From: an uncultured Ligilactobacillus sp.
GTDB taxonomy: Bacteria; Bacillota; Bacilli; Lactobacillales; Lactobacillaceae
Direction: 5' to 3'
Assembly: GCA_934215475.1 (NCBI GenBank)
Contig: CAKPZY010000038.1
Location: 1-15,534 of the forward strand
DNA length: 15,534 nucleotides
Shown here: one piece after another, positions 565 to 15,534 of the stretch
Layout: every line of letters begins with the position of its first letter
Position numbering within the stretch: position 1 is the stretch's first letter
Translations under genes and position numbers: made by a program
Notes under the pieces: generated by a model
Database searches by the model: none
Seen by the model: the letters and a program-made list of their open reading frames with translations, nothing else
Told to the model about the DNA's origin: nothing

Positions 565-1221
565 ATGCAGAAAACACAAACACTAATAAGCGTAAAAAAG
601 GCTGGGGTCGTTTCAGTCGTAAGAGGAAAAACAAAAGAGGAAGCCTATAAAACTGCAGTTGCTTGTATTAAAGGAGGGGTTAAGGCTATTGAATTAACTT
701 TTACAGCTCCTAAAGCAGATGAACTGATCAGTCAATTGGCTGAAGAATACGCTGATGATCCAGACGTTGTGGTTGGTGCTGGGACAGTTTTGGATGTTGT
801 GACCGCGCGGATCGCGATCATGGCTGGAGCGAAGTTCATTGTTAGCCCATCATTTGATAAAGAAACAGCTTTACTGTGCAACCAGTATCAGATTCCTTAC
901 ATGCCAGGCTGCATGACGATCACTGAGATCCAAACTGCAATGCGGTATGGTGCAGAGATCGTGAAAGTATTCCCTGGCAGTGTTGTAGGTAAGGGATTTG
1001 TTAAAGCCGTTAAGGCACCGTTGCCGCAAGCTAACATTATGCCGACTGGCGGAGTTGACCTGGAAAACATGCATGAATGGTTTGAAGTTGGTGTTGAAGC
1101 AGTTGGTGCCGGCAGCAATTTAACTGGTGCCGCCGCTAAGGGTGACTTTAAAGCTGTTGAAAATCAGGCAGAAGATTACCACAAAGAAATTTTGCGGATT
1201 CAAGGAGAGTTGAGTAAATAA
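565..1221 (+). CDS. kdgA: 2-dehydro-3-deoxy-6-phosphogluconate (KDPG) aldolase
   Basis: A class I aldolase of the Eda/KdgA family that cleaves KDPG to pyruvate and glyceraldehyde-3-phosphate, the last step of glucuronate breakdown. The 218 residues match the usual family length (about 205-220) and span one TIM barrel. Visible landmarks are GVVSVVRG (14-21), IELTFTAP with the catalytic general base E43, GAGTV (71-75), SPSFD (94-98), PGCMT (114-118), the Schiff-base lysine K134 in EIVKVFPGS, and the phosphate-binding PTGGV (160-164). A strong ribosome binding site, GGAGGT at 554-559, sits 5 nt before ATG 565. Its TAA overlaps the ATG of kdgK by one base, so the two are translationally coupled. 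The cytoplasmic location and role are secure. A KDPGal substrate cannot be excluded from sequence alone, but the neighbours make only KDPG. Confidence 0.95.
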   Translation: MQKTQTLISVKKAGVVSVVRGKTKEEAYKTAVACIKGGVKAIELTFTAPKADELISQLAEEYADDPDVVVGAGTVLDVVTARIAIMAGAKFIVSPSFDKETALLCNQYQIPYMPGCMTITEIQTAMRYGAEIVKVFPGSVVGKGFVKAVKAPLPQANIMPTGGVDLENMHEWFEVGVEAVGAGSNLTGAAAKGDFKAVENQAEDYHKEILRIQGELSK

Positions 1222-2246
1222 TGAAAAAAGTTGTTACTTTCGGCGAAATGATGTTGCGTCTGAAACCAGCTGAAAATCAGCGGATCATCCAAACCGACCA
1301 ATACTCCGGCTTGTATGGCGGGGCTGAAGCTAACGTGGCAACCTCATTATCTTTATTGGGAGACCACGCTCAGTTCGTTTCTAAAGTACCGGTTCATGCT
1401 GTCGGGCAAGCAGCTCTGGGTACTTTGCGCAGATATGGTGTTGATACCTCAGAAGTTGTCCAAGGCGGTCCAAGACTGGGGATCTACTTCTTTGAAAAAG
1501 GGGCCAGCATTAGAAATACCAGTGTTGTTTATGATCGAGCCGGAAGTTCTTTTGCCGTTTCTAAGGCTAGTGAATATGATTGGGCACAGATCTTAAAGGA
1601 CGCAGATTACTTCTATTTTTCCGGTATTACACCAGCTGTGTCAACCGAAACACGCCAAGCGGTCTTTGATGCAGTTGAGTACTGTGATCAACATGATGTT
1701 CAAATCATCTGTGATCTGAACTATCGCGGCAAGATGTGGAGTGAAGAAGAAGCACAAGAAACGATGGATAAATTAATGCCATATGTAAATATTTGTTTGG
1801 CTAATGATGAAGACTTCGAGTCGTCTTTAGGTATTAAGGCTTTTGATGGCAATATGGAACGTGGTATTGAACAAAGAGAAGACTTTATCAATGGAATGAA
1901 GAAAATTACTGAAAAATATTCGAATTGTCAAACCGTTGCTAGTGTTTTGCGGAATATTCACTCAGTGGAAAATTCGCAGTGGACAGCTTTGATGGTCGAT
2001 CATGGTGAAGTATTTGAAACACCTGTTTATGATATGCATGTCTGGGAAGGTGTCGCAGGCGGTGATGCTTTCGCAGCAGGCTTGATTCATGGAATTATGA
2101 ATAATTTTGATAAACAAGAAAGGGTCGATTATGCAATTGCTGCTAGTGTTCTTAAATTAACTATTAGCGGTGATTTGAATTTAGTAAACGATTCAGAAAT
2201 TCGTGCTGTAATGAATAAGCAAAATGGAATGCAAGTCATAAGGTAG
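1221..2246 (+). CDS. kdgK: 2-keto-3-deoxygluconate (KDG) kinase, PfkB family
   Basis: Phosphorylates KDG with ATP to KDPG, the substrate of the adjacent aldolase. The 341 residues form one ribokinase/PfkB fold. Landmarks are FGEMMLRL (7-14), the substrate-binding GGAEANVA (33-40), CDLNYR (164-169), a LANDEDF stretch (193-199), and the C-terminal anion-hole/catalytic motif with catalytic base D282 in GGDAFAAG. That motif reads E-G-V-A-G-G-D rather than the common D-R-V-G-G/A-G-D; the catalytic Asp is intact, and E. coli KdgK also has an Ala here, so activity is expected. ATG 1221 overlaps the kdgA stop (TAATG). The Shine-Dalgarno GGAG (1204-1207) lies inside kdgA, rather far away (13 nt), so reinitiation probably contributes. 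The gene is followed by a strong bidirectional terminator. Confidence 0.93.
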   Translation: MKKVVTFGEMMLRLKPAENQRIIQTDQYSGLYGGAEANVATSLSLLGDHAQFVSKVPVHAVGQAALGTLRRYGVDTSEVVQGGPRLGIYFFEKGASIRNTSVVYDRAGSSFAVSKASEYDWAQILKDADYFYFSGITPAVSTETRQAVFDAVEYCDQHDVQIICDLNYRGKMWSEEEAQETMDKLMPYVNICLANDEDFESSLGIKAFDGNMERGIEQREDFINGMKKITEKYSNCQTVASVLRNIHSVENSQWTALMVDHGEVFETPVYDMHVWEGVAGGDAFAAGLIHGIMNNFDKQERVDYAIAASVLKLTISGDLNLVNDSEIRAVMNKQNGMQVIR

Positions 2247-2360: not shown

Positions 2361-3437
2361 TTATTTATTATCCTTTTCGATTGCTTCCCACAAACCATTG
2401 AGGTAAGCGATCCCTAACGCACGGTCGTATAAACCATAACCAGGTCGACCTTGTTCACCCCAAATGTCACGTCCATGGTCGGGTCTGATATAGCCATCGA
2501 AGTTAGTATCATGCAGAGCCTTCATGATTTCATACATGTCAAGTGATCCTTCAGACGAAAGATGGGCAGATTCATGAAAATCCCCTTCATCATTGATGAA
2601 TTTGATATTACGGGCATGAATGAACGGAGCACGGTCTTTAGCGACAAATTCACGGATGATGGCTGGCACGTCATTTTGTGGATTTTCACCCAAGCTTCCA
2701 GTACAGATTGTGAAGCCGTTGTATTTAGATTCATACAATTCTTCAATAGCTTGCATATCCTCACGATTCTTATAGATCCGAGGCAAGCCGAATAATGGAC
2801 GTGGCGGATCATCCGGATGCATCGCCATGCGGACATCGCATTCTTCACAGACTGGGATGATGGCATCCAAGAAATATTTTAGATTTTCTGTCAACTTGGC
2901 CGCGTCGACATCTTTATACAATTCAAAAAGTCGTTTAACTTCAGCCAAACGTTCTGGTTCCCAGCCTGGCAAAACGTAGCCGTTTGAGTTCTTTTGTACA
3001 GACTGAGCAATGTCTTCCGGATTACCTTCAACATATTTATGTTCAAAGGACATGTCAGTTGAACCATCAGCTAATTTGTAATGTAATTCAGTCCGGACCC
3101 AGTCGAAAATCGGCATGAAGTTGTAACAAATAACCTTAATACCAAATTCAGCGAGGTTGCGGATAGTTTGCTTGTAGTTTTCGATATACTTGTCACGTGA
3201 TGGTAAACCGATCTTAATATCGTCATGAATATTAACCGATTCGATGACTTCGAGCTTCAGACCAGCAGCCTCAACTTCATCTTTTAAGTCCTTGATTTTT
3301 TCTTTTGGCCAAACTTCACCAACTGGAATATCGAATAAGGCACCAACAACCTGGGTCGTTCCAGGAATCTGGCGGATATTCTCTAAGGTAATGGGGTCGT
3401 CTTTAGATCCATACCAGCGGAATCCCATATTCTTCAT
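2361..3437 (-). CDS. uxuA: D-mannonate dehydratase
   Basis: Converts D-mannonate to 2-keto-3-deoxygluconate, feeding KdgK. The 358 residues fit the shorter Gram-positive UxuA form, with a TIM-barrel fold. The metal ligands expected for the family are all visible: H207 in [10 protein letters not shown]245 in [10 protein letters not shown]274 in FIHARN and D320 in RPDHGR. The N-terminal FRWYG (6-10) and the [10 protein letters not shown] segment (104-113) are also typical. It is the second gene of a minus-strand operon, 33 nt after uxuB. ATG at 3437 is preceded by GGGAG with a 10-nt spacer; the later Met4 would be worse placed. Transcription stops at the shared terminator just beyond. No truncation or lost residue is seen. 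Confidence 0.95.
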
Positions 3438-3470: not shown

Positions 3471-5108
3471 TTAAAGGTCATAACCCTTGGTTTGTACGGT
3501 GTCATGAATCGTCTGGCGAACGGCACCTTTGCCAGTAATCAGTTGCTTGAAATAATCTTCAACTTTTTGTCCCAAACCAATTTCGTACAAGTCGTTGCCG
3601 AAGATACTCTTATTCGTCAAAATCGGCTGCAAACCGGCATGAACTTCGGCATTCTTGTCGCCTAATTTGATCCCAGCAACATGTTCTTTCATGACATCCA
3701 GCAATGGATCTGGACTCTGTTCAAAGGCAACTCCTTCATCATTGATGCCTAACAGATAGCGGCACCAGCCGGCTAAGACCAGAGGAATAAATTCCAGTTT
3801 TTTCGGGTCACGATCCGGATCATCAATGTAATGTTGCAATGTCACACCATAGCGTACTGGTATTTTTTGTGAGGTATCGCTGGCGATCCGCTGGGGTGTG
3901 TCTGGAATATTCTTGTTTGGCAAACGTTTGTTGACTAACTCGTCGATAAACTGTTTTGGATCAATAATTTTTGGATCTTTAACGACTGGCAGGTCTTCAC
4001 CATAGCCTAAGTTTTTGATCAAGCACTTCAAATCGGGGTCTTTGACTTCAGCGGCAATTGATTTGAAACCTAAGATGCAGCCATAAATAGCCAAAGCCGT
4101 ATGCAGTGGGTTCAAACAAGCTGTCACTTTCATTTGGTCGGCATCATTAACGGTGTCGCGGTCAGTTAAAATAACACCGGCTTTGTCTAAAGCTGGACGG
4201 CCATTTGGAAAGATGTCTTCAATAACCAGATAGTGCACTTCTTCGGTGTTACCGAATGGAGCAATGTTGGTGTGCTTATTAGTGTGCACGATCTTCGTAT
4301 CTTCAAAGCCGCTCGCTTTTAACTGCTTAGCAACTTCTTCGGATGGGTTAGGTGTGATCCGATCGATCATGCTCCATGGAAAAGAAACCTGAGTAGGGTC
4401 TTTTAGATAATCCACAAAGCCGTCCTCAACCAGACCATTCTTTTGCCAACCTTCAGCGATCCGCAAAATTTCAGTCTTTAGCTTTTCGCCATTTTGTGAG
4501 AAGTTATCTGTGCTGACCATGGCAATTGGCAGTTTGCCTGTTTGATACCGGGCATACAACAAATGAGCAACAGCCCCCATATTAGTGACAGGAGCATCTG
4601 GTCCATTGGCAATGTCCGCTTCAGCAGCTTTTGTTAAGTTGCCTTCAACATCAGTTAAAGAGTAACCTTTTTCGGTAATCGAAAAAGTTGCGAATTGCAA
4701 CGAGGGTTTAGTAAAGATTTTGGTTAATTTGTCCCAACCTGCAGCATTGTCCTTGTTGAAGTATAGAGAATCAGCAACACTAGCCAATAATTCTTTCTCC
4801 AGCGTACCGTCGCCGTTCATCGTCACACTTAACATGCGATTATCATAAGCCTGGTAAATTTGATCGATGACTGCATCATCATAAGTTTCAGCGACCACGA
4901 CACCGCTTTTAAGCTCACCCTGGTTTAAGAGATCTTGCGCGATCTTAGCGTGGAAGCAGCGGAAGAGGTTCCCGCCGCCGAAATGTACCCAAACTGGGTT
5001 TTCCGCAGCATTCTGTGTGATTTCATCCTGGTCATAGTTAGGTACAGTAATTCTTTGAGCAGTGAAAGCTGCCTTTTTATTCTTGAAGTTATCTAGTAAA
5101 GCGACCAT
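3471..5108 (-). CDS. uxuB: D-fructuronate reductase (mannonate oxidoreductase), mannitol dehydrogenase family
   Basis: NADH-dependent reduction of D-fructuronate (from UxaC) to D-mannonate (for UxuA). At 545 residues it is longer than E. coli UxuB (about 486), as is usual in lactic acid bacteria. The N-terminal Rossmann domain starts with VHFGGGNLFR (41-50). STDNFSQNGE (199-208) and FPWSMIDRITP (243-253) are hallmark motifs of the polyol-specific long-chain dehydrogenases. The catalytic residues K327, N333 and H336 fall in MKVTACLNPLHTALA. The C-terminal substrate domain follows. ATG 5108 has a strong AGGAGG 9 nt upstream. A tagaturonate reductase (UxaB) assignment is less likely, because UxuA is in the same operon and no galacturonate genes are present. 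Expression starts from a regulated promoter divergent from the GntR gene. Confidence 0.93.
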   Translation of the reverse strand: MVALLDNFKNKKAAFTAQRITVPNYDQDEITQNAAENPVWVHFGGGNLFRCFHAKIAQDLLNQGELKSGVVVAETYDDAVIDQIYQAYDNRMLSVTMNGDGTLEKELLASVADSLYFNKDNAAGWDKLTKIFTKPSLQFATFSITEKGYSLTDVEGNLTKAAEADIANGPDAPVTNMGAVAHLLYARYQTGKLPIAMVSTDNFSQNGEKLKTEILRIAEGWQKNGLVEDGFVDYLKDPTQVSFPWSMIDRITPNPSEEVAKQLKASGFEDTKIVHTNKHTNIAPFGNTEEVHYLVIEDIFPNGRPALDKAGVILTDRDTVNDADQMKVTACLNPLHTALAIYGCILGFKSIAAEVKDPDLKCLIKNLGYGEDLPVVKDPKIIDPKQFIDELVNKRLPNKNIPDTPQRIASDTSQKIPVRYGVTLQHYIDDPDRDPKKLEFIPLVLAGWCRYLLGINDEGVAFEQSPDPLLDVMKEHVAGIKLGDKNAEVHAGLQPILTNKSIFGNDLYEIGLGQKVEDYFKQLITGKGAVRQTIHDTVQTKGYDL

Positions 5109-5261: not shown

Positions 5262-5339
5262 TATGTTTGTGAAAGGGTTATTATTTAAACAAGCGGCGTT
5301 ATTCGCTCATAAGAAAATATAAAAGCGGGGCAGTTATAG

Positions 5340-6014
5340 ATGGCAACAATCTCGTCAATGAAAGAACAAGTCTATGATGCGATACTACATCGTATTATAG
5401 AATTAAAATATTTACCTGGAAAGAAAATTTCCGAAAATGAATTAGGTGAGGATCTGCAAGTTGGACGTACTCCTATCCGGGAGGCCATTCTGCAGTTACG
5501 GCAAGAGGGACTAGTCAAGGCGATTCCACAATCTGGAACTTATGTTTCCAAGATCAACTTGAGTGCGGCTAAAGACGCCCGCTATGTTAGAGAAAGTTTA
5601 GAAGTACGAGTTGTTGGCGAGGCAATGGAAAAATTTACTAAGTATGATTATACAATGTTGCGCCAAATTATTGAAAGGCAAGTTTTGGCCGAAAGCGATA
5701 AGCAAAAGAACCTTGAATTTTTCAAACAGGATGAGGCCTTTCACCATTATTTCTACACAGCAACTGGGCATGAACAGATTTGGACTTGGCTGCAAAACGT
5801 TAATATGCAGCTGAATCGTTTCAGATTTTTAAGATTGAAAAATAAGAATTTAACTTGGGATTCGTTGGTGAAAGAGCACACCGATCTCGTAGCAGCTATC
5901 GAAGCAGGAAATACTGAACAAGCACAGAAAAAAATATCTGAGCATTTACACCGCATGCTCGAAGAGGAGCCGGCTTTGCGAAAATGGTATCCGGAATATT
6001 TTGAAGACAATTAA
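5340..6014 (+). CDS. GntR-family (FadR/FCD subfamily) transcriptional regulator, probable UxuR-like repressor of the glucuronate genes
   Basis: A 224-residue regulator. The N-terminal winged helix (about 8-72) carries the GntR signature: PGKKISENELGEDLQVGRTPIREAI runs from about 26 to 50, followed by LRQEGLV and a wing with SGTYVS. The C-terminal helical FCD ligand domain (about 78-215) has the usual metal-binding set: D131 and H135 in KQDEAFHH, H180 in KEHTDLV and H202 in SEHLHRM. Such domains bind small organic or sugar acids, so a pathway intermediate such as fructuronate is a plausible inducer (inference). The gene is divergent from uxuBA and followed by its own terminator, so it is monocistronic. 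ATG 5340 has only a GCGGGG-type site 9 nt upstream, suggesting modest translation. The likely targets are the two palindromes at 5149 and 6183. Family confidence is high; target and effector are inferred. Confidence 0.88.
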   Translation: MATISSMKEQVYDAILHRIIELKYLPGKKISENELGEDLQVGRTPIREAILQLRQEGLVKAIPQSGTYVSKINLSAAKDARYVRESLEVRVVGEAMEKFTKYDYTMLRQIIERQVLAESDKQKNLEFFKQDEAFHHYFYTATGHEQIWTWLQNVNMQLNRFRFLRLKNKNLTWDSLVKEHTDLVAAIEAGNTEQAQKKISEHLHRMLEEEPALRKWYPEYFEDN

Positions 6015-6026
6015 ATAAATTTTTAA

Positions 6027-6058: not shown

Positions 6059-6144
6059 AACAAAAATAATTTTTTAAGCTCTTAAAATTATAGACTGTAA
6101 CAAGGTTTTCCAGTAGATTATAGAATTATTCACAAAATAAAGGT

Positions 6145-6173
6145 TTGACCTAATATGATTTCTGGTTTATTAT
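6145..6173 (+). promoter_or_regulatory. Promoter of the transporter-glycosidase-uxaC operon
   Basis: -35 TTGACC (6145-6150), a 17-nt spacer and -10 TATTAT (6168-6173). Start near 6180, giving a leader of about 190 nt. A cre-like site begins at the -10 box and the GntR-type palindrome starts 9 nt after it. The 356-nt gap between the regulator and transporter genes therefore holds the regulator's terminator, this promoter, one operator and two cre-like sites; nothing else is recognised there. Confidence 0.7.
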
Positions 6174-6186
6174 GTAAACGATTCAT
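6172..6186 (+). promoter_or_regulatory. cre-like CcpA site at the transporter operon start
   Basis: ATGTAAACGATTCAT matches 14 of 15 positions of WTGNAANCGNWNNCW (A for C at position 14). It spans the end of the -10 box and the likely start point and shares four bases with the adjacent GntR-type operator, so the two proteins might compete or cooperate. Confidence 0.5.
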
Positions 6187-6200
6187 ATACTAGTATATCA
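6183..6200. promoter_or_regulatory. GntR-type operator at the transporter operon promoter
   Basis: TCATATACTAGTATATCA contains the perfect 14-bp palindrome ATATACTAGTATAT (6185-6198) and near-symmetric flanks. It lies 9 nt downstream of the -10 box, almost the same placement as the related site at uxuB (5149-5166). This arrangement suggests one repressor, most simply the neighbouring GntR protein, controls both. Confidence 0.65.
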
Positions 6201-6255
6201 GAATTCCAAAGTCAAATTTTTGTAATGTTAGCAGGTATAATCTCTTAATCTATTA

Positions 6256-6270
6256 TTGCAAGCGCTTGTA
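6256..6270 (+). promoter_or_regulatory. Second cre-like site in the transporter leader
   Basis: TTGCAAGCGCTTGTA contains the perfect palindrome CAAGCGCTTG (6259-6268), the classic core of a cre/LacI-family operator, and matches 14 of 15 positions of the degenerate cre consensus. It lies roughly 75-90 nt downstream of the predicted start point, where bound CcpA could act as a roadblock. Confidence 0.6.
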
Positions 6271-6373
6271 AGTGAAAGAAAGTATATGGTTAAAGTTTAT
6301 AAAATGTTGGTTCGATTAAATTTCTAAAATATAAGCATTACTATCTCATTCTTTTGAGGAGGAAAAGATTTTG

Positions 6374-7672
6374 ATGGCAAATAATGAAAAACATGGTAAA
6401 GAAATGCCGGTAAAAACGGCGGTTGGAGAAGTAACTAATGTTGCGGTTAAAGATGAAGAACAACCGAAGCTTCCTTGGAGCATTTCTTCAGCAATGTTCC
6501 TGGCTCCCCTCTGCTGGTATGGGCCAATTGGGTCTACTCGGAGTGTCTTAATTCCACAGTTGTTTAGCCAACTCGATCCAGTACATAAAGTTTGGGCTGT
6601 TGGAATCTTGGCAACCGTAGCGTCAATCACTGGAGCTGTTGCCAACCTGCTTTTTGGTGCATTTTCAGATGTGACTCGATCAAAATTTGGTAAAAGAAAG
6701 CCTTATATTATTGGAGGAACGATTGCTGTTGCAGCTTCATTGATCGCAATTGCAAACATTACATCAATTACTGCAATTATTTTTGTTTGGATTGTCGCGG
6801 CGGCAGCTGAAAATGCTATTGCGGCAGCAATTTATCCCCAGATTTCTGACCGTGTCGCTCCACATTGGCGCGGAACTGTGTCTACCTTTTACGGTGTCGG
6901 TTTTACAATTGCGCAGCAAGGATTCGCTTTGCTTGCTGCACAATTCTTAGGGAATGTTAAGTTTGGTATTTACTTTATGGCATTGACAACAGTTGTTTTA
7001 GCCATTATTCATGTTGCCTTGATTAAGGAAGGGTCCAATATGAATGAACCAAAAATTACCCTAAATAAGGAAACTCTGAAGAAATATTTCTTCTTCCCAA
7101 CTCATGATTCACGCGACTTCTATTTGGCTTTGTCAGGTAAGTTCTTCATGGTTATTGGCACAACGATCGTTACGACCTTCCAGTTATATATCTTTACTGA
7201 TTACATTGGTCAAGGAACAACAGGCGCTGGGCATTCCATTTCTATTTTCTCAAGTATTATGTTAATTATCGGTGTCTTCTTTGCTTTGATTGGTGGGCCA
7301 ATTGCCGATAAAGCTAAACGAGTTAAGATGCCAGTTGTACTAGCAACGTTTGCTTTAGGCTTTGCGGCTCTGTTTCCTTTGTTTATTGCTAAGCCATGGG
7401 CAATGTTTGTCTATGCTGTCATTGCTGCTTTTGGTAATGGTGTTTATAATTCAGTTGATGGTGCTTTAAATATGGATGTTTTGCCATCCTCCGATACTGC
7501 AGGCAAGGATTTGGGATTGATTAATCTTGCTAACACTTTGGGACAAATGATCGGGGCAATGTTTGCGTCAGCTGTCGTTGAGTCTTTTGGCTATCAGTCG
7601 ATTTTTATTTTCGCCGTGGCAATGGAAGTGCTTGGTGCAATTGCGATTGCTTCAATCAAGAGAGTTAAATAA
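6374..7672 (+). CDS. MFS / GPH-like sugar transporter, probably for glucuronides
   Basis: An integral membrane symporter of about 432 residues with roughly 12 hydrophobic segments. A hydrophilic N-terminus of about 35 residues precedes the first (SISSAMFLAPLCWYGP). The loop between segments 2 and 3 reads GAFSDVTRSKFGKRKPYIIGG (95-115), the D-x-T-R-S-x-x-G-K-R-x-P pattern of glycoside-pentoside-hexuronide and SUT-like carriers; segments 6 and 7 flank a charged central loop (about residues 216-255). It is the first gene of the operon with three glycosidases and uxaC, so an intact glucuronide, aldobiuronate or related conjugate is the likely cargo (inference). Two starts are possible: ATG 6374, or TTG 6371, which is better spaced (8 against 11 nt) from the strong GAGGAGG at 6356-6362. 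The protein differs by one residue. Confidence 0.85.
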   Translation: MANNEKHGKEMPVKTAVGEVTNVAVKDEEQPKLPWSISSAMFLAPLCWYGPIGSTRSVLIPQLFSQLDPVHKVWAVGILATVASITGAVANLLFGAFSDVTRSKFGKRKPYIIGGTIAVAASLIAIANITSITAIIFVWIVAAAAENAIAAAIYPQISDRVAPHWRGTVSTFYGVGFTIAQQGFALLAAQFLGNVKFGIYFMALTTVVLAIIHVALIKEGSNMNEPKITLNKETLKKYFFFPTHDSRDFYLALSGKFFMVIGTTIVTTFQLYIFTDYIGQGTTGAGHSISIFSSIMLIIGVFFALIGGPIADKAKRVKMPVVLATFALGFAALFPLFIAKPWAMFVYAVIAAFGNGVYNSVDGALNMDVLPSSDTAGKDLGLINLANTLGQMIGAMFASAVVESFGYQSIFIFAVAMEVLGAIAIASIKRVK

Positions 7673-7706
7673 GTAAATTAGTTATAGAAAAGGTGGTTTT
7701 ATATTA

Positions 7707-9275
7707 ATGTCTAGTTATTCAAAACAATTCAGTACAGAATTTTGGACAGAAACTTCTGGAGATTTGACTGCTAAACGAGATCATTTAGAAACACCGGTTC
7801 ATGATAAGAAAGTTAAAGAGAATGCAGCCAAAATTGTGATCGATCCTGCTGATAAACGACAAGATTGGATTGGTGCAGGCGCTGCAATCACTGATGCAGC
7901 TGCTTCATTAATTTGGAAACAAAGTAAGGAACAACGTAGTGCTTTACTGCATGAACTGTTCGATCCAGAAAAAGGCAGCTTTTCGACAATTCGGATTCCT
8001 CTTGGTTCTTGTGAGCCAGCCAGTCAGCCATACTATACTTATGATGATGTCCCTTTTGGTGAACATGATTCAAGTCTGTCCAAGTTTTCAATTGGTGAGG
8101 GCACTCCAGGGGCAGAGGATGCCACGAAAGATTTGAAATATGTTGTTCCAGTTGTCCAAGAAATTCTGGGAATCAATCCAGCAGTCAAAATTATGGCTTC
8201 ACCGTGGTCAGCTCCAGCTTGGATGAAGAATACTGGGGCCTTAAAAATGGGTGGTCATCTGCGTTTTGGTGAGTATACTGGCAATGGCTATGATCAAGTC
8301 AAAGACACTTTTGAAGGCGTTTATGCACAATATTTTGTGCGTTACCTTGAAGAGTACAAAAAATTGGGTATTTCGATTTATGCAATCACAATTCAAAATG
8401 AACCTTCGAATGCGGCTGCTTGGCCAGCAATGATCTGGAATGTTTCGGAATTGGCGGAGTTTGGTTACAAATACTTGCGTCCAGCTTTGAATCGTAGTTT
8501 TCCAGAAACTAAGCTTTATTTCTGGGATGGCAGCCTAAATGTCTTGAATGAGCCAATTTCAGATCACATTACTCAAGAACAGGCCGGTGCATTTGACGGC
8601 TTTGCGTTCCATACCTATGACGGACCGTATACTAGCTTGTTTAAGGCTAGTCGAAGTTTTCCTCACTGGACTTTAGCAATGACTGAACGACGTTGCATGA
8701 TCGAAGAGACTCCCGAGGATGCCTCGCATATCATGTTCGGCTTGATCGGTAATTGGCTGGTTCGCAATGGCCTAGGAATGATCAATCTGTGGAATATGGC
8801 CTTAGATGAGCGCGGCTTACCGAACATGGTTGGTTCTACCGGTCGGCGCGGAGTGGTCACTATTGACCACAAGACGGGTAAAGTTCAACGTAATTTGGAA
8901 TACTATATGCTCAGAAACTTTGGTCAAGATGTTGTACCTGGATCAACCGTGATTGGATCAACTAACTATACCCAAGATGGATATACAGGTGGCTTGGGTT
9001 CAGTTTCCTTCTTGGGACCAGACGGCTCGATTGCAGCCCATATTTTCAATCCAAAGGGCGCACCGTTAGAGGCTGCAATTACAATTAATGGTCAGGAAAA
9101 GACTTGGCAGCACGTTACTGTTCCTGCGTGGGGAACCGTGACCTTGCATAAGGCATATGGTGAGGTTAACGAAAGTTCACCAAGAGCAGATGAAGAGTTT
9201 GCATTAAACCCATATCCAGCAGCTTTGGCAGATGACGAAGCTCCTGGTAAAGGTGTTAACAAGAATAAGAAGTAA
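7707..9275 (+). CDS. Cytoplasmic glycoside hydrolase family 30 enzyme, possible beta-glucuronidase
   Basis: A 522-residue retaining glycosidase of clan GH-A with no signal peptide, so it acts on imported substrate. GH30 hallmarks: GAGAAITDAAA (56-66), TIRIPLGSCE (94-103), SPWSAPAWMKNTG (165-177), acid/base E232 in TIQNEPS, FHTYDGPY (301-308), nucleophile E327 in AMTERRC, and NLWNMALDERGLPN near 360-374. A C-terminal beta-domain follows, ending in a charged 30-residue tail. GH30 members are glucosylceramidases, xylosidases, beta-1,6-glucanases and others. A GH30 beta-glucuronidase active on baicalin has been described from Lactobacillus brevis, which fits this glucuronate operon. Specificity here is inferred from context. 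It follows the transporter by 34 nt; ATG 7707 has AGGTGG 10 nt upstream. Homology-only names such as glucosylceramidase would mislead. Confidence 0.85.
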   Translation: MSSYSKQFSTEFWTETSGDLTAKRDHLETPVHDKKVKENAAKIVIDPADKRQDWIGAGAAITDAAASLIWKQSKEQRSALLHELFDPEKGSFSTIRIPLGSCEPASQPYYTYDDVPFGEHDSSLSKFSIGEGTPGAEDATKDLKYVVPVVQEILGINPAVKIMASPWSAPAWMKNTGALKMGGHLRFGEYTGNGYDQVKDTFEGVYAQYFVRYLEEYKKLGISIYAITIQNEPSNAAAWPAMIWNVSELAEFGYKYLRPALNRSFPETKLYFWDGSLNVLNEPISDHITQEQAGAFDGFAFHTYDGPYTSLFKASRSFPHWTLAMTERRCMIEETPEDASHIMFGLIGNWLVRNGLGMINLWNMALDERGLPNMVGSTGRRGVVTIDHKTGKVQRNLEYYMLRNFGQDVVPGSTVIGSTNYTQDGYTGGLGSVSFLGPDGSIAAHIFNPKGAPLEAAITINGQEKTWQHVTVPAWGTVTLHKAYGEVNESSPRADEEFALNPYPAALADDEAPGKGVNKNKK

Positions 9276-9331
9276 GTGATACAGAATAAAAAATCGAATA
9301 TGGCGGGCCAAATTGGAACGCTGATAAATGA

Positions 9332-9378
9332 ACTGTTCTGTAGTAGATACCGATCTTTCTTTTCGTCAGAACGATAGT
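9332..9378 (+). promoter_or_regulatory. Possible leader hairpin upstream of the internal terminator
   Basis: GTTCTG (9335-9340) is complementary to CAGAAC (9367-9372), extended by ACT/AGT with a 3-nt bulge. The left arm can alternatively pair with 9389-9398, part of the terminator stem (10 consecutive pairs, 4 of them G-U). This is compatible with an attenuation or antitermination switch, but it was found by eye and no regulator-binding motif is recognised. Confidence 0.3.
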
Positions 9379-9379
9379 C

Positions 9380-9424
9380 AAACAAACGGCTACGGGATTT
9401 CCGTAGCCGTTTGTTTAATTTTTT
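9380..9424 (+). terminator. Strong intrinsic terminator inside the operon, between GH30 and GH2 genes
   Basis: A perfect 16-bp stem (9380-9395 with 9401-9416), a 5-nt GATTT loop, then AATTTTTTG. The T-run ends exactly at the GAGGAGG ribosome binding site (9425-9431) of the GH2 gene. No convincing promoter is seen between the two genes (9276-9440), so expression of GH2, the GH59-like gene and uxaC would depend on read-through or regulated antitermination. Confidence 0.88.
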
Positions 9425-9440
9425 GAGGAGGAACTTTTTA

Positions 9441-11255
9441 ATGGAAAATGAATTACTTTATCCAGTAAATAACAAATATCGGAGAGCTGTTTCTTTAGAT
9501 GGATTATGGAATTTTAAGTTTGATCCGCATAATATTGGAGAAACGAAAAACTGGCAAAACGGTTTGAGCGACGCAATTGAGATGCCAGTTCCTGCTAGTT
9601 TCAATGATTTTTTTACTGATAAGAATTCACGTGAATATGTTGGAGATTTTTGGTATTCACGCAAATTTTTTATTCCATCTGAGTGGAAGCAACGCTTTGT
9701 TGGTCTGCGTTTTGACGCAGCTACTCATCGTGCAGCGGTTTTTGTGAACGGTCAGGAGATCAGGAAGCATGAAGGGGGGTTCTTACCTTTCGTTGCCGAT
9801 ATCAGTAAAGCAGTCAAATTTGGTGAAGAAAATGTTGTTACCGTCAAAATTAACAACGAGTTGCACCGAGATAAGCTTCCTGCAGGTGACACCTTAACTT
9901 TAAAAAATGGCAAAAAGATTGCTAAACCTTTCTTTGATTTCTTTAATTACTCAGGCTTGAACCGCAGTGTGCATTTATTGGCACTCCCACCAAAACGAGT
10001 ACTTGATTACTCTGTGAACACCAAAGAGGTTTCAGGGGACAGCGCGACAGTTGAATACACGGCCACGGCACCTGCTGGCACAGACGCAAAGGTTGTTTTG
10101 TTAGATGCCGCAGGCCAAAAGGTTGCTGCAAGTGATGGTTTGAGCGGGAGTCTGCAGGTTGAAAAACCTGAACTTTGGGAAATCGGTCAAGGTTATTTAT
10201 ATACAGTGAAGGTTTCTTTATTAGATGATGGACAAGTAGTTGATGAATATCAAGATAGAGTGGGGATTCGGAAACTCGAGATCAAAGGGCATGAAATCTT
10301 ATTAAACGGCAAATCGGTCTACATGCGTGGCTTTGGGAGACATGAGGACAGCAACTTTGCTGGACGAGGCTTTGACTTGAAAGTTGAAAAAAGAGATCTT
10401 TCATTGATGAAATGGATGGGAGCCAACTCTTATCGCACCTCACATTATCCTTATGATGAGCAGGCATATCAAATGGCTGACCAAGCAGGGATCCTAATTA
10501 TTGATGAAGTTCCGGCCGTTGGTTTTAAGATGGCTGCTGCTGGTTTCTTAGGCGGACTCGATCAGAACTTCTTTGACGGCGAATGGTTAGATGATCTTTA
10601 CAAATCGCATATTGACCAAATCAAAGATTTGATCAAACGTGATAAAAACCATCCAAGCGTTGTTGCTTGGAGTTTCTTTAATGAGCCGGACACATCGACT
10701 GAAAAGTGCCTGCCATACTTTAAGAAGATTTTTAGCGCAACTGAGAGTTTGGACCCGCAAAAACGGCCACGAACATTTACTCTGAATGAAGATGACACAT
10801 ATGAAACCTCCTATGCCCTCGATTTTCCAGATATTTATTTGCTTAACAGATATCCAGGCTGGTATCACAAGTGGGGTTATGAGATTTCTGACGGCGAAGC
10901 ATATTTGCGTGATGAGTTGGATCAATGGCAGAACTCTAACATTGACAAACCAGTGATCTTTTCTGAATATGGTGCCGACACTAAAGCCGGGTTGCACAAG
11001 CTTCCTTCAGTGATGTGGTCTGAAGAGTACCAGGTAGAGCTATTAGAGATGTTCAACCGAGTATTTGACAGCTACCCGTTTATTCGTGGTGAGCAAGTTT
11101 GGAATTTGGCTGACTTCCAGACTGTTGAAGGAAATCAACGCGTTGACGGCAACAAAAAAGGGATCTTTACACGTGAGCGTCAACCTAAAGCTTCCGCCTT
11201 TTACTTAAGGAATAGATGGCACAAATTACCGTTAGATCATAAGTCAAATGAATAA
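9441..11255 (+). CDS. uidA: Beta-glucuronidase, glycoside hydrolase family 2
   Basis: Hydrolyses beta-D-glucuronides to D-glucuronate and aglycone in the cytoplasm. The 604 residues are almost the length of E. coli GUS (603). Order: sugar-binding jelly-roll (about 10-185), immunoglobulin-like domain (about 186-280), TIM barrel (about 281-600). Acid/base E415 in SFFNEPD, nucleophile E509 in VIFSEYGAD, and the N571-x-K573 pair in GNKKGIFTR that reads the substrate carboxylate separates glucuronidases from galactosidases. NLADFQT (555-561) is typical. The active-site loop after AVGF (KMAAAGFLGGLDQNFF and on) is nearly as long as the E. coli loop 1, suggesting small conjugates. ATG 9441 is chosen because GAGGAGG (9425-9431) is 9 nt upstream; the longer frame from TTG 9411 begins inside the terminator stem. 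Confidence 0.95.
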   Translation: MENELLYPVNNKYRRAVSLDGLWNFKFDPHNIGETKNWQNGLSDAIEMPVPASFNDFFTDKNSREYVGDFWYSRKFFIPSEWKQRFVGLRFDAATHRAAVFVNGQEIRKHEGGFLPFVADISKAVKFGEENVVTVKINNELHRDKLPAGDTLTLKNGKKIAKPFFDFFNYSGLNRSVHLLALPPKRVLDYSVNTKEVSGDSATVEYTATAPAGTDAKVVLLDAAGQKVAASDGLSGSLQVEKPELWEIGQGYLYTVKVSLLDDGQVVDEYQDRVGIRKLEIKGHEILLNGKSVYMRGFGRHEDSNFAGRGFDLKVEKRDLSLMKWMGANSYRTSHYPYDEQAYQMADQAGILIIDEVPAVGFKMAAAGFLGGLDQNFFDGEWLDDLYKSHIDQIKDLIKRDKNHPSVVAWSFFNEPDTSTEKCLPYFKKIFSATESLDPQKRPRTFTLNEDDTYETSYALDFPDIYLLNRYPGWYHKWGYEISDGEAYLRDELDQWQNSNIDKPVIFSEYGADTKAGLHKLPSVMWSEEYQVELLEMFNRVFDSYPFIRGEQVWNLADFQTVEGNQRVDGNKKGIFTRERQPKASAFYLRNRWHKLPLDHKSNE

Positions 11256-11273
11256 CGGGAAAGAAGGCTAAGT

Positions 11274-13814
11274 ATGAGTGAATCTCAAGTTCTAATTGAC
11301 GGTGCCACACTTGATGTCGGCGCTGATGAAGCCAATACTTTTAAAGGTTTTGGATATATCAGCTGCAATAACTCTTCGCGACTTTTGCTAGATTACAAAG
11401 CAGAGCACCCTAATGTTTATCGGCAAATTCTAATTACATTGTTTGGCGGGGAATACCCGGTTTTGCGAATGCTTAAGGTCGAAATGGGTGATGACGCGAA
11501 TACTTCATCTGGGACTGAACCAGCAACAATGCGCTCAGCGGAAGAAAAAGCTAACGTTTCTCGTGGTGCCGGTTTCCAAATTATTGCGGATGCCAAGAAA
11601 ATCCAGCCGGCATTGAAAACGGCGATTTTACGTTGGGGAGAACCTGGTTGGCTCAAGGATCAGTGGAAGAACGTTAAAAGTGACGATCCAGACCATTTAG
11701 TGCCAGCAAGTGCTTTTGAGCCAATGTATCAGTGGTATAAGCAGACAATCATTGCGGCATACCAAAGATATGGGTACCTAATTGACTATATTGATCCTGA
11801 CCGCAATGAAAACACTAAGCCCATGTTGACGTGGATCAAGTGGTTCAGCCAACGAATAAAAAATGATCAAAGCGGGTTTCCAACAGATTTTCCAGTCGGA
11901 GAATACCAGCACATAAAAATCATTGCTGCTGACCAAAATTATGAAACTAATTTTGGAGATTACATGGTGGAGCAAGAAAATCTCCGAGAATTAGTGGATG
12001 CAGTTGGGTATCATTATAATACTGATGATGGACCGCAAAAGCCGTTTACTGAGCTGGCTGATCACAGAGGACGTGAAGTTTGGTACAGTGAGGGCGTTGC
12101 TCCAATGGAACAAGCTAAGTACCGAGTGCGCGCTTCGGCAAAAACCAGTATTGGCGGACCGGGCAGCAGCTTAGATGTGGCCAACCGGGTCATTAAAGGA
12201 TATTTTAAATCTCGCAGGAGTCTCTATCTTTTCCAGCCGGCTGTGTCAGCATTTTATCCGGGTGTCAATTATACCCATAAGGAATTAATAGCCGCTCAAC
12301 GGCCGTGGTCTGGTTATTTTGAGGCAGATAATGTCGGCCTGCAAGTGATCAAACACTTTACCGACTTTGCGGTGACTGGCTGGCGGGATAATGATGCCTG
12401 GCGCTACTTGAAATCTGCTTGCTACAGTGGTGTGGGTGGTACGGAAAACTTAGATCATGATACAGACAAATCAAGTTACCTGACACTTGTAGCACCAGAT
12501 AAAAATAACTTTTCATTCGTGGCTGTTAACGATAGTGCGACACCACGAAAGTATCAGGTTGCAGTTAAAAATTTGAAATTGGCTGATGCTCAGATCGAGA
12601 TTTGGACGACTTGCGGGCCAAAAGCAGGCGAAACTTACGATGCTGAAGTAAAAATGGTGACCGCTGGTCAAATTGATCCTGCTGGAAACTTTACTTGTGA
12701 AGTGCCTGCTTATGGGATAGTGACTGTGACGACGCTAATACGCAGCCAAGACCCGACGGCAGCATATCAGAAATTGGTCAGTCCAGATGATGAGGTGCTA
12801 GGATCAAATCGTAACGATGAATTCTTGTATCATGACGATTTTGAGTATTCCGCTGATTGTGTTGAACAAAGAGGCGGGACGCCACGTTATACAACAGACC
12901 AAGGCGGTGCTTTTGAAGTGGTCAAAAATGATGAAGAAGGCTATGTATTACAGCAAATGATCACCGAAAAAGAGCGGGCGCTTGACTGGGAGTATTCTTT
13001 TGCACCTAATCTGACCGTAGGTGATGATCAGTGGAGCGATTACGAGGTTGAGACGGTATTTAAGTTTGATCAAAAAACTGTGCAAAACTCGGCTGACGGA
13101 AATTATTTTGCCATTGGTCTGCGGTCGATCACAGATATTAAAGGAAGACTGCAAAGCGCTCCTTATGTCCTGAAGCTGGACAACAATGGTCATTATGAAT
13201 TGATCATAAAAGATCGGGTCGTTGATTATGATTATGTGAACCTTCTAGATTTAGAACGGTGGCATTCTTTAAAGTTTAAAGTAGTTGGGCCAGAGCTAAC
13301 GGGATATTTGGATGGGAAAGAGTTGTTAACCTATGTTGACAATGATAACCCAACCTATTCTGGAAGAGTGAAGCTGGGAACGGGCTATTACCATACGCAA
13401 GTTAAATCTTTGAGCGTGAGGAAGGTTTCCGGCGGTTCTTATGTCCAGCAACGAATTGATGATTCTGAGCAGGCAATTACCTATGAAGGTGAACGGGACC
13501 ACGTTGAAGGAATCAGAAATAGTGTCTGGAACAGGTCGCTAACGACTTGTGGGAAAGACGGGCAATTCAGTTTTAAATTCGAAGGAACAGGATTTAATTT
13601 AGTCGGTAAGCAGGAACAAGAAAGCAAGTTGGTAGTGTTCATTGATGGCAGCAGGCAGCGCGATAGTGTGATTGAACCACAGACAGGTGGAGACCGGCAA
13701 ACAAATGTGCATATTTCTGAGTTATGTGCTGGTCAACATAAAGTGACGATCAAGGTGGCTGCAGGAAAATATATTCTTGATGCGGTAGAAATATTAGCAA
13801 ATTTGGATAAATGA
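11274..13814 (+). CDS. GH59-like (galactosylceramidase-family) glycosidase with extra C-terminal carbohydrate-binding-type module
   Basis: An 846-residue protein resembling animal galactocerebrosidase (GALC) along most of its length. A TIM barrel and interleaved beta-sandwich (about 22-505) include GFGYISCNNSSRLL (25-38), LKVEMGDDANTSSGTEP (67-83), RWGEPGWL (120-127), probable acid/base E179 in DPDRNEN, IIAADQNYE (216-224) and probable nucleophile E273 in VWYSEG. A lectin-like jelly-roll (about 519-722) resembles the GALC C-terminal domain. Residues 735-846 form an additional beta-rich module (EGTGFNLVG, VVFIDG, LDAVEIL) absent from GALC. There is no signal peptide, so it is cytoplasmic. It lies 18 nt after the beta-glucuronidase gene, with AGAAGG 6 nt before ATG 11274. 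Basic residues K312, R314 and R315 lie where GALC has an uncharged segment, which might favour an acidic sugar (inference). The family call is good; the substrate is unknown. Confidence 0.8.
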   Translation: MSESQVLIDGATLDVGADEANTFKGFGYISCNNSSRLLLDYKAEHPNVYRQILITLFGGEYPVLRMLKVEMGDDANTSSGTEPATMRSAEEKANVSRGAGFQIIADAKKIQPALKTAILRWGEPGWLKDQWKNVKSDDPDHLVPASAFEPMYQWYKQTIIAAYQRYGYLIDYIDPDRNENTKPMLTWIKWFSQRIKNDQSGFPTDFPVGEYQHIKIIAADQNYETNFGDYMVEQENLRELVDAVGYHYNTDDGPQKPFTELADHRGREVWYSEGVAPMEQAKYRVRASAKTSIGGPGSSLDVANRVIKGYFKSRRSLYLFQPAVSAFYPGVNYTHKELIAAQRPWSGYFEADNVGLQVIKHFTDFAVTGWRDNDAWRYLKSACYSGVGGTENLDHDTDKSSYLTLVAPDKNNFSFVAVNDSATPRKYQVAVKNLKLADAQIEIWTTCGPKAGETYDAEVKMVTAGQIDPAGNFTCEVPAYGIVTVTTLIRSQDPTAAYQKLVSPDDEVLGSNRNDEFLYHDDFEYSADCVEQRGGTPRYTTDQGGAFEVVKNDEEGYVLQQMITEKERALDWEYSFAPNLTVGDDQWSDYEVETVFKFDQKTVQNSADGNYFAIGLRSITDIKGRLQSAPYVLKLDNNGHYELIIKDRVVDYDYVNLLDLERWHSLKFKVVGPELTGYLDGKELLTYVDNDNPTYSGRVKLGTGYYHTQVKSLSVRKVSGGSYVQQRIDDSEQAITYEGERDHVEGIRNSVWNRSLTTCGKDGQFSFKFEGTGFNLVGKQEQESKLVVFIDGSRQRDSVIEPQTGGDRQTNVHISELCAGQHKVTIKVAAGKYILDAVEILANLDK

Positions 13815-13880
13815 AACTAGAACTGTCCTGAAGAATCAGAATTTTGATATAACGCAACTAAAAATAAAAGGAGCATGAAA

Positions 13881-15293
13881 ATGACTTTGCTAAACGAAGA
13901 TTTTCTCTTAACCAACAATCCGGCAAAAAGATTATTTCATGAGTACGCTGAAAAAATGCCCATCATCGACTTTCATTGTCATCTCGACCCTAAGGAGATT
14001 TATGAAAACAAAAATTACCCTAATTTGACCCGGATATGGATAAATGACGGAAATTTTGGTGATCATTACAAGTGGCGGCTAATGCGTGCAAATGGTCTTC
14101 CTGAGGAACTGATCACTGGTGATGGCGATGAGTACGATAAGATTGTCGCGTGGGCGAAGACAATTGAAAAGGCAATCGGCAATCCGTTGTATGAATGGAC
14201 CCATCTTGAATTACAGCGTTTCTTTGGGGTTGATGAAGTGTTAACTGAAAAAAGTGTCAAAGGTATCTGGAATAAGGCAAACACTTTATTGGCGACTGAA
14301 GAATTTAAGCCACGTAATCTGATCAAGAAGTCGCATGTCAAAATCGTCTGCACCACGGATGACCCCGCTTCTGATCTGCACTATCATGAGTTACTTGCCC
14401 AAGAAGAACAGGAGAATGGTTTCAAAGTCTTGCCGGCAATGCGGCCGGATAAGGCATTTGCAATTGGTGACGAAACTTATGGTTCATATTTAAAGGAATT
14501 GGGGAAGGCTGCAGATGTAAAAATCACGGACTTCAAGGGCCTAGCAGCAGCGTTTCAACAACGCTTCGAATTTTTTCAAGCTCATGGCGGCAGCTTATCT
14601 GACCATGGCTTGAACACTTTCCATTTTGTTAAAGTCGGAGAAGCTGAATTAGATCAAATCGTTGCTAAAGGAATTAGGAATGAAGAGTTGTCTTCACATG
14701 AGGTGAATGCATATACAACAGGCCTGATCGAGGCATTGATGAGACTCAACAAAAAGTTTGACTGGACGATGCAGTACCATATCAATGCCATTCGGAATGC
14801 CAATAAGCCGATGCTGGCTGAAGTTGGCCCAGATTCTGGGTTTGATTCTATGGGGACGCAAGCAGATATTGCCTCGCAGATCATGGATCTTCTGACTGAT
14901 ATGCAAAACGAAAATGGGATTCCGAAGACCATACTATATTCATTGAATCCTAATGACTGGAAGCAGTTAGCAACTGGGATGGGCGACTTCTACGGCGAAG
15001 GTGTTCAGAAAATGCAGCTGGGTGCTGCCTGGTGGTTCAATGACACACGTGAAGGGATGATTGATCAATTAAACACTATGGCTCAGCAAAGCCTGCTGGC
15101 TAATTTTGTGGGAATGTTGACAGATTCACGTAGTTTTCTGTCATATCCACGACACGAGTATTTCCGGCGTGTCCTATGTAATTTGATTGGCGAATGGATC
15201 GAACGGGGACAGCTGCCCGAGGATTACGAGTATCTTGGTCAAATTGTTGAGGATATTTCATATAATAATGCGAAAAAATACTTTGGTTTTTAA
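13881..15293 (+). CDS. uxaC: Glucuronate isomerase (uronate isomerase)
   Basis: Isomerises D-glucuronate, released by the upstream glycosidases, to D-fructuronate for UxuB. It is an amidohydrolase-superfamily member of 470 residues, the same length as E. coli UxaC. The N-terminal EDFLLTN (6-12) and the metal-ligand motif IIDFHCHLDP (28-37, H32 and H34) are diagnostic, together with TTDDPASDL, FHFVKVG, QYHINAIRNAN, WWFNDTREGM and MLTDSRSFLSYPRHEYFRR further on. The start is ATG 13881, because AAGGAG (13868-13873) is 7 nt upstream; ATG 13875 would leave only 1 nt. It is the last gene of the operon, 66 nt after the GH59-like gene, with no terminator or promoter seen between. The family also accepts galacturonate, but no galacturonate branch is present here. 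Confidence 0.96.
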   Translation: MTLLNEDFLLTNNPAKRLFHEYAEKMPIIDFHCHLDPKEIYENKNYPNLTRIWINDGNFGDHYKWRLMRANGLPEELITGDGDEYDKIVAWAKTIEKAIGNPLYEWTHLELQRFFGVDEVLTEKSVKGIWNKANTLLATEEFKPRNLIKKSHVKIVCTTDDPASDLHYHELLAQEEQENGFKVLPAMRPDKAFAIGDETYGSYLKELGKAADVKITDFKGLAAAFQQRFEFFQAHGGSLSDHGLNTFHFVKVGEAELDQIVAKGIRNEELSSHEVNAYTTGLIEALMRLNKKFDWTMQYHINAIRNANKPMLAEVGPDSGFDSMGTQADIASQIMDLLTDMQNENGIPKTILYSLNPNDWKQLATGMGDFYGEGVQKMQLGAAWWFNDTREGMIDQLNTMAQQSLLANFVGMLTDSRSFLSYPRHEYFRRVLCNLIGEWIERGQLPEDYEYLGQIVEDISYNNAKKYFGF

Positions 15294-15321
15294 TTAAGAT
15301 CGAAGGGAGAAGGGCTTTTCT

Positions 15322-15482
15322 GTGGAAGAAGAAACCTCTTTTTCTATTGATGAAGGAAATTATTTGATATGCCTCCATGCTTAATTGAATTTCAAGAAGT
15401 ACTGTCTAATAGTGATCAAGAAAAATTTAATGCGGTTAATGACCCAAAACTTTTTCTATCCTGGTTTGTAAAATTAAGTTAG
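15322..15482 (+). pseudogene. Short broken reading frames downstream of uxaC, possible gene remnant
   Basis: Two short overlapping frames lie here: GTG 15322 gives 20 residues (EEETSFSIDEGNYLICLHA after the start) preceded by GAAGG. In another frame ATG 15369 gives 37 residues ending FLSWFVKLS at TAG 15480-15482. Joined by a frameshift they would make a protein of about 55 residues, so this may be a decayed gene. I do not recognise either product. The remaining sequence to 15534 is A+T-rich with a small inverted repeat (TTTTGA-ATG-TCAAAA, 15510-15524) and no clear terminator for uxaC. Low confidence that any of this is functional. Confidence 0.25.
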
Positions 15483-15534
15483 AAATATAAAAAGCCATTT
15501 GTGATAGACTTTTGAATGTCAAAATCAAAAGAAA

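Follow-up and report, generated by a model that had tools for sequence, protein, structure and literature searches.

A GH59 branch with an altered galactose pocket accompanies one subclade of GH2 beta-glucuronidases in Lactobacillaceae

A 15,534-nt stretch of DNA (contig CAKPZY010000038.1, positions 1 to 15,534), referred to below as the window, was found to contain a uronate catabolism locus with a gene for an 846-amino-acid (aa) protein of glycoside hydrolase family 59 (GH59). To our knowledge, what is known of GH59 comes essentially from a single human disease enzyme, the Krabbe disease enzyme galactocerebrosidase (GALC), and galactosidase is the only activity known for the family. The window protein retains the GALC catalytic pair and has lost the tryptophan that confers galactose specificity on GALC. 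In a sample of Lactobacillaceae, all genomes with such a gene also encode one subclade of GH2 beta-glucuronidases (GUS). These findings point, with confidence slightly short of even, to a beta-glycosidase of changed specificity that acts on imported beta-glucuronides together with its GUS partner. The protein is likely not a galactosylceramidase.

Family membership and domain structure

The GH59 gene starts with ATG and coincides exactly with the frame discussed in an earlier, sequence-only reading of the window. Two domains were identified in its product:

11274..13814, forward strand: GH59 gene, 846 aa, predicted cytoplasmic exo-beta-glycosidase (PF02057, PF21708)
11340..12362, forward strand: GH59 catalytic-domain match, residues 23-363 (PF02057 Glyco_hydro_59, 258 bits against a cut-off of 27, profile positions 1-293 of 294)
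12897..13418, forward strand: GALC-type C-terminal lectin domain, residues 542-715 (PF21708, 39 bits against a cut-off of 27)

The full PF02057 domain, the PF21708 lectin domain and the catalytic glutamate pair confirm, at the level of sequence, a genuine GH59 family member. In the alignment with GALC, N178-E179 of the window protein falls on N181-E182 and E273 on E258; the GALC-like landmarks and the two probable catalytic glutamates named in the sequence-only reading are thus borne out. The protein had no match in NCBIfam. The only solved chains that matched it at an E value of 0.001 or lower were two galactocerebrosidase sequences (3ZR5 and 4CCC); mammalian GALC shares with it the GH59 and lectin domains, the catalytic pair and the equivalents of W135, N181 and W524.

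No signal peptide was evident by eye at the N terminus (MSESQVLIDGATLDV...), as the earlier reading had also stated, and in this the window protein differs from GALC, which is secreted or lysosomal. A further difference is an extra C-terminal stretch after the lectin domain (approximately residues 745 to 846). The protein is apparently cytoplasmic. Secretion was considered and dropped because no signal was seen by eye, though long relatives (loci L044, L045 and L056) bear surface-type domains.

Alteration of the galactose pocket

Passages of the GALC study PMC4445328 describe contacts of the 3-, 4- and 6-OH groups of galactose-like ligands with W135, G48, T93, S261 and R380, contacts of C2 groups with N181 and E258, the role of E182 as acid/base, and a lectin-domain residue, W524, that shapes the pocket. 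They also state that W291, near C4, confers galactose specificity and that glucose analogues do not bind. GALC numbering was anchored on the solved-chain sequence, and all ten pocket letters matched.

The pocket alignment (MAFFT) comprised 59 rows, 50 from the branch of the window protein and nine outside it (GALC, three Pseudomonadota and five other Bacillota). The 59 rows exclude L006, L057 and L067, in each of which the gene is broken into two frames; L010 and L017, which duplicate L007 and L008; L073, missed by the profile; and relatives without a fetched locus. For L105 and L113, separate alignments were made. Near-copies are frequent among the branch rows, and counts such as 50/50 refer to sequences, not events. 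MAFFT dropped 25 of the 536 GALC residues and left R380 unplaced; R380 was placed by two pairwise alignments that differ by one residue. The following positions were compared:

11367..11369, forward strand: Asn32, at GALC Gly48 (galactose contact); Asn in 50/50 branch rows, Gly in 7/9 others
11505..11507, forward strand: Ser78, at GALC Thr93 (galactose contact); Ser in 50/50 branch rows, Thr in 7/9 others
11808..11810, forward strand: Glu179, predicted acid/base, aligned with GALC E182; 49/50 branch rows, 9/9 others
12090..12092, forward strand: Glu273, predicted nucleophile, aligned with GALC E258; 50/50 branch rows, 9/9 others
12123..12125, forward strand: Arg284, in a loop that follows the nucleophile, candidate for binding a carboxylate; Arg in 50/50 branch rows, 0/9 others
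12207..12218, forward strand: K312-S-R-R315 stretch, probably outside the active site, preceding the presumed strand that bears Q321
12234..12236, forward strand: Gln321, at GALC Trp291 (C4, galactose-specificity residue); Gln in 50/50 branch rows
12528..12530, forward strand: Asn419, at or adjoining GALC Arg380 (the alignments give N419 or V418); Asn419 in 50/50 branch rows

The equivalents of W135, N181, E258 and W524 are retained in all 59 rows and that of E182 in 58; W524 aligns with W572 of the window protein. The galactose contacts G48, T93, S261 and R380 are not matched in the window protein, which has N32, S78 (hydroxyl kept), A276 and V418/N419 at these sites, and W291 is replaced by Q321. 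At position 276 the branch has Ala in 45, Ser in four and Gly in one of its 50 rows, and no row of the branch has an Arg counterpart of R380. Of the nine outside rows, seven retain Gly, Thr and Trp at the G48, T93 and W291 sites. Column 419 is Arg in the three rows from Pseudomonadota, so that R380 may be conserved in them. In a quick tree, which carried long-branch warnings, GALC and the Gly-Thr-Trp rows fall outside the window branch.

Arg284 lies in an added loop that is a gap in GALC. The position is a gap in seven of the nine outside rows and Ser and Thr in the other two; it is also Arg in the separately aligned L113. The loss of the galactose-selecting Trp together with the gain of an invariant Arg is as expected for an acid-bearing substrate of gluco configuration. 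The new specificity that the sequence-only reading had suggested is backed by the loss of the residue reported to set galactose specificity in GALC. The same reading had offered the basic stretch K312, R314 and R315 as a possible carboxylate-binding site. These residues are present at the positions it gave, but the proposed role was dropped: K312 is Lys in only 13 of the 50 branch rows, and R314 and R315 precede the presumed strand of the W291 equivalent. R314 and R315 occur in 45 and 46 of the 50 branch rows; L113, in which R284 is conserved, has Asn and Ala at these positions. They lie 7 and 6 residues upstream of Q321 in the same segment and, because Q321 aligns with an active-site residue, should by this spacing sit at the other end of the strand, and so probably of the barrel. 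R284 is the better candidate for carboxylate binding.

R120 (11631-11633), next to the W135 equivalent, is Arg in 50/50 branch rows and in 1/9 others. It is a second candidate for the changed pocket.

Association with one beta-glucuronidase subclade

The GH59 start codon lies 18 bp past the stop codon of a GH2 gene, and a ribosome-binding-like AAGAAGG precedes the GH59 ATG. The GH2 protein scored 689 bits against the NCBIfam beta-glucuronidase model NF007538 (cut-off, 544). The closest solved chain is 6ECA, the printed sequence of which includes the stretch FKMAAAAFLGGLNQSFF, assigned to LrGUS2 of Lactobacillus (L.) rhamnosus in a passage of PMC11893618, where the enzyme is described in connection with baicalin conversion. 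By the curated model and the closest structure, the window GH2 protein is identified as a beta-glucuronidase. It contains a GNKK motif, which we take to be the N-x-K signature by which GUS enzymes bind uronate.

A sample of 397 Lactobacillaceae genomes was searched with the window GH59 and the window GH2 proteins. GH59 was detected in 28 genomes and GH2 in 55. The best GH2 match was at least 64% identical (the window subclade) in 29 of these 55; the other 26 had only homologues of 38 to 49% identity. All 28 GH59 genomes carry the subclade, and none of the 26 genomes with distant GH2 only carries GH59. The association gave a Fisher P value of 4e-42 over the 397 genomes and of 8e-15 for the comparison of 28/29 with 0/26, both nominal, since the genomes are related and not independent. 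The nearest GH59 and GH2 copies are at most 5 kb apart in 27 of the 28 genomes and at most 15 kb apart in all 28. A second GH59 copy lies farther off in G057 (16.5 kb) and G294 (24.7 kb), and on another contig in G358.

The lone subclade genome not counted among the 28 with GH59, G097, has GH59 reading-frame fragments adjoining an intact GH2 (L116). At L006, GH59 is split and GH2 intact, whereas at L067 (G020) the two genes are each split. In G066 (L065), the acid/base residue of GH59 (9389-11956) is replaced by Ala, and an internal stop interrupts the nearby GH2 frame (5706-7507). Gene decay is thus mixed across the pair, and sequencing errors may contribute. Because GH59 occurs in 28 of the 29 subclade genomes and in none of the 26 with distant GH2, we conclude that the function of GH59 is linked to one GUS subclade and not to GUS homologues generally, and that this GUS can persist alone. 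The link to a beta-glucuronidase, which the sequence-only reading had drawn from a single window, is far stronger across these genomes.

A scan of named genomes yielded eight GH59 loci. Six Lentilactobacillus species have GH59 proteins 57 to 59% identical to the window protein, each encoded beside a GH2 of 69 to 71% identity; GH59 proteins of Duganella and Pseudoduganella are 25% identical to it.

The uronate locus of the window

Open reading frames and profile matches (Pfam and NCBIfam) identified nine genes besides the GH59 gene, given in the list that follows, which also contains one hairpin:

565..1221, forward strand: 2-keto-3-deoxy-6-phosphogluconate (KDPG)/KHG aldolase (NCBIfam, above cut-off)
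1221..2246, forward strand: 2-keto-3-deoxygluconate (KDG) kinase-type PfkB sugar kinase (NCBIfam family matches, below cut-offs)
2361..3437, reverse strand: uxuA, mannonate dehydratase (NCBIfam, above cut-off)
3471..5108, reverse strand: uxuB-type fructuronate reductase-like dehydrogenase (NCBIfam family matches, below cut-offs)
5340..6014, forward strand: GntR/FCD regulator (Pfam)
6371..7672, forward strand: MFS/GPH-type sugar transporter (PF07690 and PF13347 above cut-off; GPH model TIGR00792 below cut-off)
7707..9275, forward strand: GH30 protein, 522 aa, likely GH30_9-type beta-glucuronidase (PF02055, 100 bits)
9380..9416, forward strand: terminator-like hairpin in the GH30/GH2 intergenic region (17-bp stem and T-run, pattern match only)
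9441..11255, forward strand: GH2 beta-glucuronidase with GNKK motif (likely ATG start; the mechanical frame begins at TTG 9411)
13875..15293, forward strand: uxaC, uronate isomerase (PF02614, 682 bits; NF002794 above cut-off)

The GH59 gene, with uxaC downstream, stands between the GUS gene and the isomerase gene, and a soluble-sugar transporter, an MFS protein with a weak GPH-type match, is encoded upstream; on both points the window agrees with the sequence-only reading. The uronate setting is reinforced by genes which that reading had omitted (GH30, uxuA, and the genes of uxuB type, KDG kinase type and KDPG aldolase). A genomic setting of glucuronide use is found both in these window genes and in the GUS partner of 28/28 Lactobacillaceae. 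No lipid gene was annotated by Pfam or NCBIfam among the ten window genes. The hairpin between GH30 and GH2 suggests that GH2, GH59 and uxaC may form a separate transcription unit. Because the hairpin overlaps the TTG at which the mechanical GH2 frame begins, the ATG at 9441 is the likelier start.

The GH30 protein scored 196 bits against an endo-1,6-beta-glucanase model, far below the cut-off of 700. In passages of PMC8453022, GH30-9 is an exo-beta-glucuronidase subfamily adjoining GH30-3, which holds endo-beta-1,6-glucanases. On the weak glucanase match and this adjacency, the GH30 protein is likely a GH30-9 beta-glucuronidase.

Neighborhoods and distant relatives

The Lactobacillaceae sample provided 31 GH59 loci in 28 genomes, fetched with up to 10 kb on each side and in some cases clipped by contig ends. 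GH2 lies inside the fetched stretch in 27 loci; at L046, L057 and L066 its place is taken by genes for GH30 and KDG kinase, and L044 showed a transporter and a regulator match only. A LacI-type regulator cluster was present in 22/31 loci and a GPH-type transporter in 13/31. A DUF2264 protein, presumably GH154, is encoded in 17/31 loci and may contribute a third hydrolase to this pathway. GH78-, GH127- and GH43-like clusters occur in five loci each, the last below the Pfam cut-off. Handling of rhamnose (Rha), arabinose (Ara), glucuronic acid (GlcA) and possibly galactose (Gal) in these neighborhoods would fit arabinogalactan side chains or triterpenoid saponins as substrates. GH30 copies 79 to 81% identical to the window GH30 were present in 4/31 loci (L046, L057, L066 and L067). 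Three Lactobacillaceae genomes carry two GH59 copies, of which one per genome is a long surface-type form:

L045, 9067-13644: long surface-type GH59 with FIVAR repeats
L056, 6255-10601: long surface-type GH59 with FIVAR repeats, at the cut-off of the LPXTG anchor model
L044, 9212-12559: long surface-type GH59 with DUF5776

In G057 and G294, the long form shares a region with the shorter copy.

GH59 was detected in 7 of 398 genomes of a Bacillota sample (centre genome included), in 1 of 299 Pseudomonadota genomes (the centre genome itself) and in 26 of 197 genomes of a second Bacillota family, probably Paenibacillaceae to judge from size and SLH domains, many of these genomes with open frames of approximately 1,800 to 2,270 aa. 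The long second-family proteins have N32, S78, R284, Q321 and N419 in common with the window protein in the aligned rows and are 34 to 39% identical to it. They differ from the 846-aa window protein by open frames mostly of 1,084 to 2,270 aa, with SLH domains shown for L078. At that locus, a 2,248-aa GH59 protein (8519-15265) combines SLH, Ig-like and lectin domains. The GH59 gene of L077 (592-6336) adjoins a gene for an 885-aa GH28-like right-handed beta-helix protein, and at L074, the GH59 protein of which does not have R284, a uxuB-like gene (52%) lies nearby; both give weak support for a uronic acid setting outside Lactobacillaceae. The GH59 gene of L008, with the Gly-Thr-Trp pocket, lies in a GH31/GH2 cluster, and that of L105, which keeps Thr and Trp (Gly position unaligned), is near a LacZ-type beta-galactosidase gene.

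Comparison with described systems

No activity study of a bacterial GH59 protein was seen in searches of open-access literature by title, abstract and passage. Passages of PMC4765114 describe protein 4665 of Paenibacillus sp. JDR-2 as GH59/CBM6/BIG/SLH, annotated as beta-galactosidase; by this description it resembles the long proteins of the second Bacillota family. GH59-1238 of Ruminiclostridium cellulolyticum, of putative function in passages of PMC6556953, belongs to the Xyl-Doc cluster and has a dockerin, a signal peptide and a xylose-binding CBM6. It is, by description, likewise a bacterial GH59 in a plant-glycan cluster, and differs from the window protein by these three features. The GH59 label is not new in Lactobacillus, since the table of carbohydrate-active enzymes of L. 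rhamnosus MY-1 in PMC11241047 lists GH59, GH2, GH30 and GH78.

6ECA/LrGUS2, the closest solved relative of the GUS partner, is a GH2 and not a GH59 protein. LcGUS30 of L. brevis is a GH30-9 exo-beta-glucuronidase (Sakurama 2014, as cited in passages of PMC11893618 and PMC8453022). In that family, which is GH30 and not GH59, a glucuronidase subfamily is split from the non-uronide GH30-3, and the window GH30 protein is likely of this kind. According to a review (PMC13039779, citing Zhang 2012), L. rhamnosus converts soyasaponins of group B to soyasapogenol B, a conversion that the review attributes to beta-glucosidase.

Proposed function and alternative explanations

The replacement of W291 by Gln and the constant beta-glucuronidase partner (28/28) make it likely that the window protein cuts GlcA-bearing plant sugars and not galactolipids. 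In the reading we prefer, at slightly less than even confidence, a uronide would occupy the -1 subsite. A GPH-type transporter would import a small glucuronide; Glu179 would protonate the leaving group and Glu273 would form the covalent intermediate of a retaining mechanism. Gln321, in place of the galactose-selecting Trp291, would admit an equatorial O4, and Arg284 could hold the C6 carboxylate or, alternatively, read an acid in the +1 subsite. GH59 and GH2 would cut different linkages of one substrate family, and the freed uronate would enter the steps of uxaC, uxuB, uxuA, KDG kinase and aldolase.

Several observations weigh against a uronide-specific enzyme. Next to the GH2 GUS and the likely GH30 GUS of the window, a third uronidase could be redundant. 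W121, N178, W572 and the hydroxyl at position 78 keep part of the GALC sugar pocket. L068 and L069 (Bacillota) have N32, S78, Q321 and N419 like the branch and do not have R284, so that the Trp-to-Gln exchange and R284 are separate changes. R284 is also present in the long proteins of the second Bacillota family, and none of ten loci of that family (L078, L106-L113 and L115) matched the GUS or uronate genes of the window in 20-kb stretches, nor did the third-family loci L076, L077 and L114. Loss of S261 was dropped as a diagnostic feature: Ser occurs in 4/50 branch rows and is kept in only 1/8 other bacterial rows. A link between a GALC-type pocket and galactoside clusters rests on L008 and L105; at L007 and L103, with two neighbor proteins scanned each, no galactosidase was found. 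Soyasaponin conversion would require galactosidase and glucuronidase steps alike.

The main rival, which we regard as unlikely though the strongest of the alternatives, is a beta-galactosidase that acts next to GlcA, with R284 reading the GlcA carboxylate at +1. It could, for example, release Gal from saponins with a Gal-beta-1,2-GlcA unit, or from arabinogalactan side chains once trimming by GUS has exposed it. Such an enzyme would keep the only activity known to us for GH59, and the retained pocket residues listed above, together with E179 and E273, are consistent with it. The activity itself is documented for GALC in passages of PMC4445328. The GH78-, GH127- and GH43-like and DUF2264 neighbors would match glycans of Rha, Ara, GlcA and Gal, and the soyasaponin conversion by L. 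rhamnosus (PMC13039779) and the MY-1 strain with GH59, GH2, GH30 and GH78 (PMC11241047) point in the same direction. Against it stand the exchanges of Trp291 for Gln and Gly48 for Asn, each in 50/50 branch rows. In addition, 89 of 113 neighbor representatives were given to Pfam, and the absence of a galactose-pathway family among the matches listed (25/49 and 25/41 families) argues weakly in the same sense.

Less probable still is a beta-glycosidase for beta-glucose, beta-xylose or alpha-L-arabinopyranose that decorates GlcA-containing plant glycosides. The W291, S261 and R380 sites are all altered, a gluco- or pentose-configured sugar would also fit, and the GUS partner would act once the decoration had been removed; however, the invariant Arg of the added loop is left unexplained by such an activity alone. 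An ordinary galactosylceramidase or beta-galactosidase merely located in a uronate locus would explain the GH59 label and the lectin domain but is hardly credible, given the lack of a signal peptide by eye, the changed pocket residues, the single GUS subclade in 28/28 genomes and the absence of a lipid gene among the ten window genes. Galactosylceramide hydrolysis, which the sequence-only reading had held to make no sense here, is likewise implausible, and a sphingolipid substrate was considered and dropped.

A wider form of the glucuronide reading, held with clearly less confidence than the reading for the window protein itself, is that the whole branch with Gln for Trp291 and the loop Arg (Lactobacillaceae and at least two other Bacillota families) has exchanged galactose for glucuronic acid as its sugar. 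This branch would then be the first glucuronidase branch of the Krabbe enzyme family and, in lactobacilli, the obligate partner of a GH2 glucuronidase in stripping plant saponins or arabinogalactan glucuronides. A natural GH59 branch with a swapped specificity residue would reveal which positions set sugar choice in this fold. In Lactobacillaceae, GUS of the LrGUS2 type, which has been studied for plant glucuronide cleavage, is usually accompanied in the genome by an uncharacterized GH59 protein. Conversions in plant food fermentation, such as that of soyasaponins by L. rhamnosus, would gain a genetic explanation if saponin or flavonoid glucuronides are substrates of the two enzymes. The swap at a known specificity residue and a partner enzyme that is already in hand make the finding worth a bench test.

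Right end of the window

In a search of plasmid records, tblastn gave a single distant match, in Kitasatospora. Among the 20 matches listed, of 47 plasmid records of lactobacilli and relatives, only the right end of the window matched: its last approximately 85 bp (15447-15534), at 87 to 96% identity. This segment is likely the edge of a mobile element.

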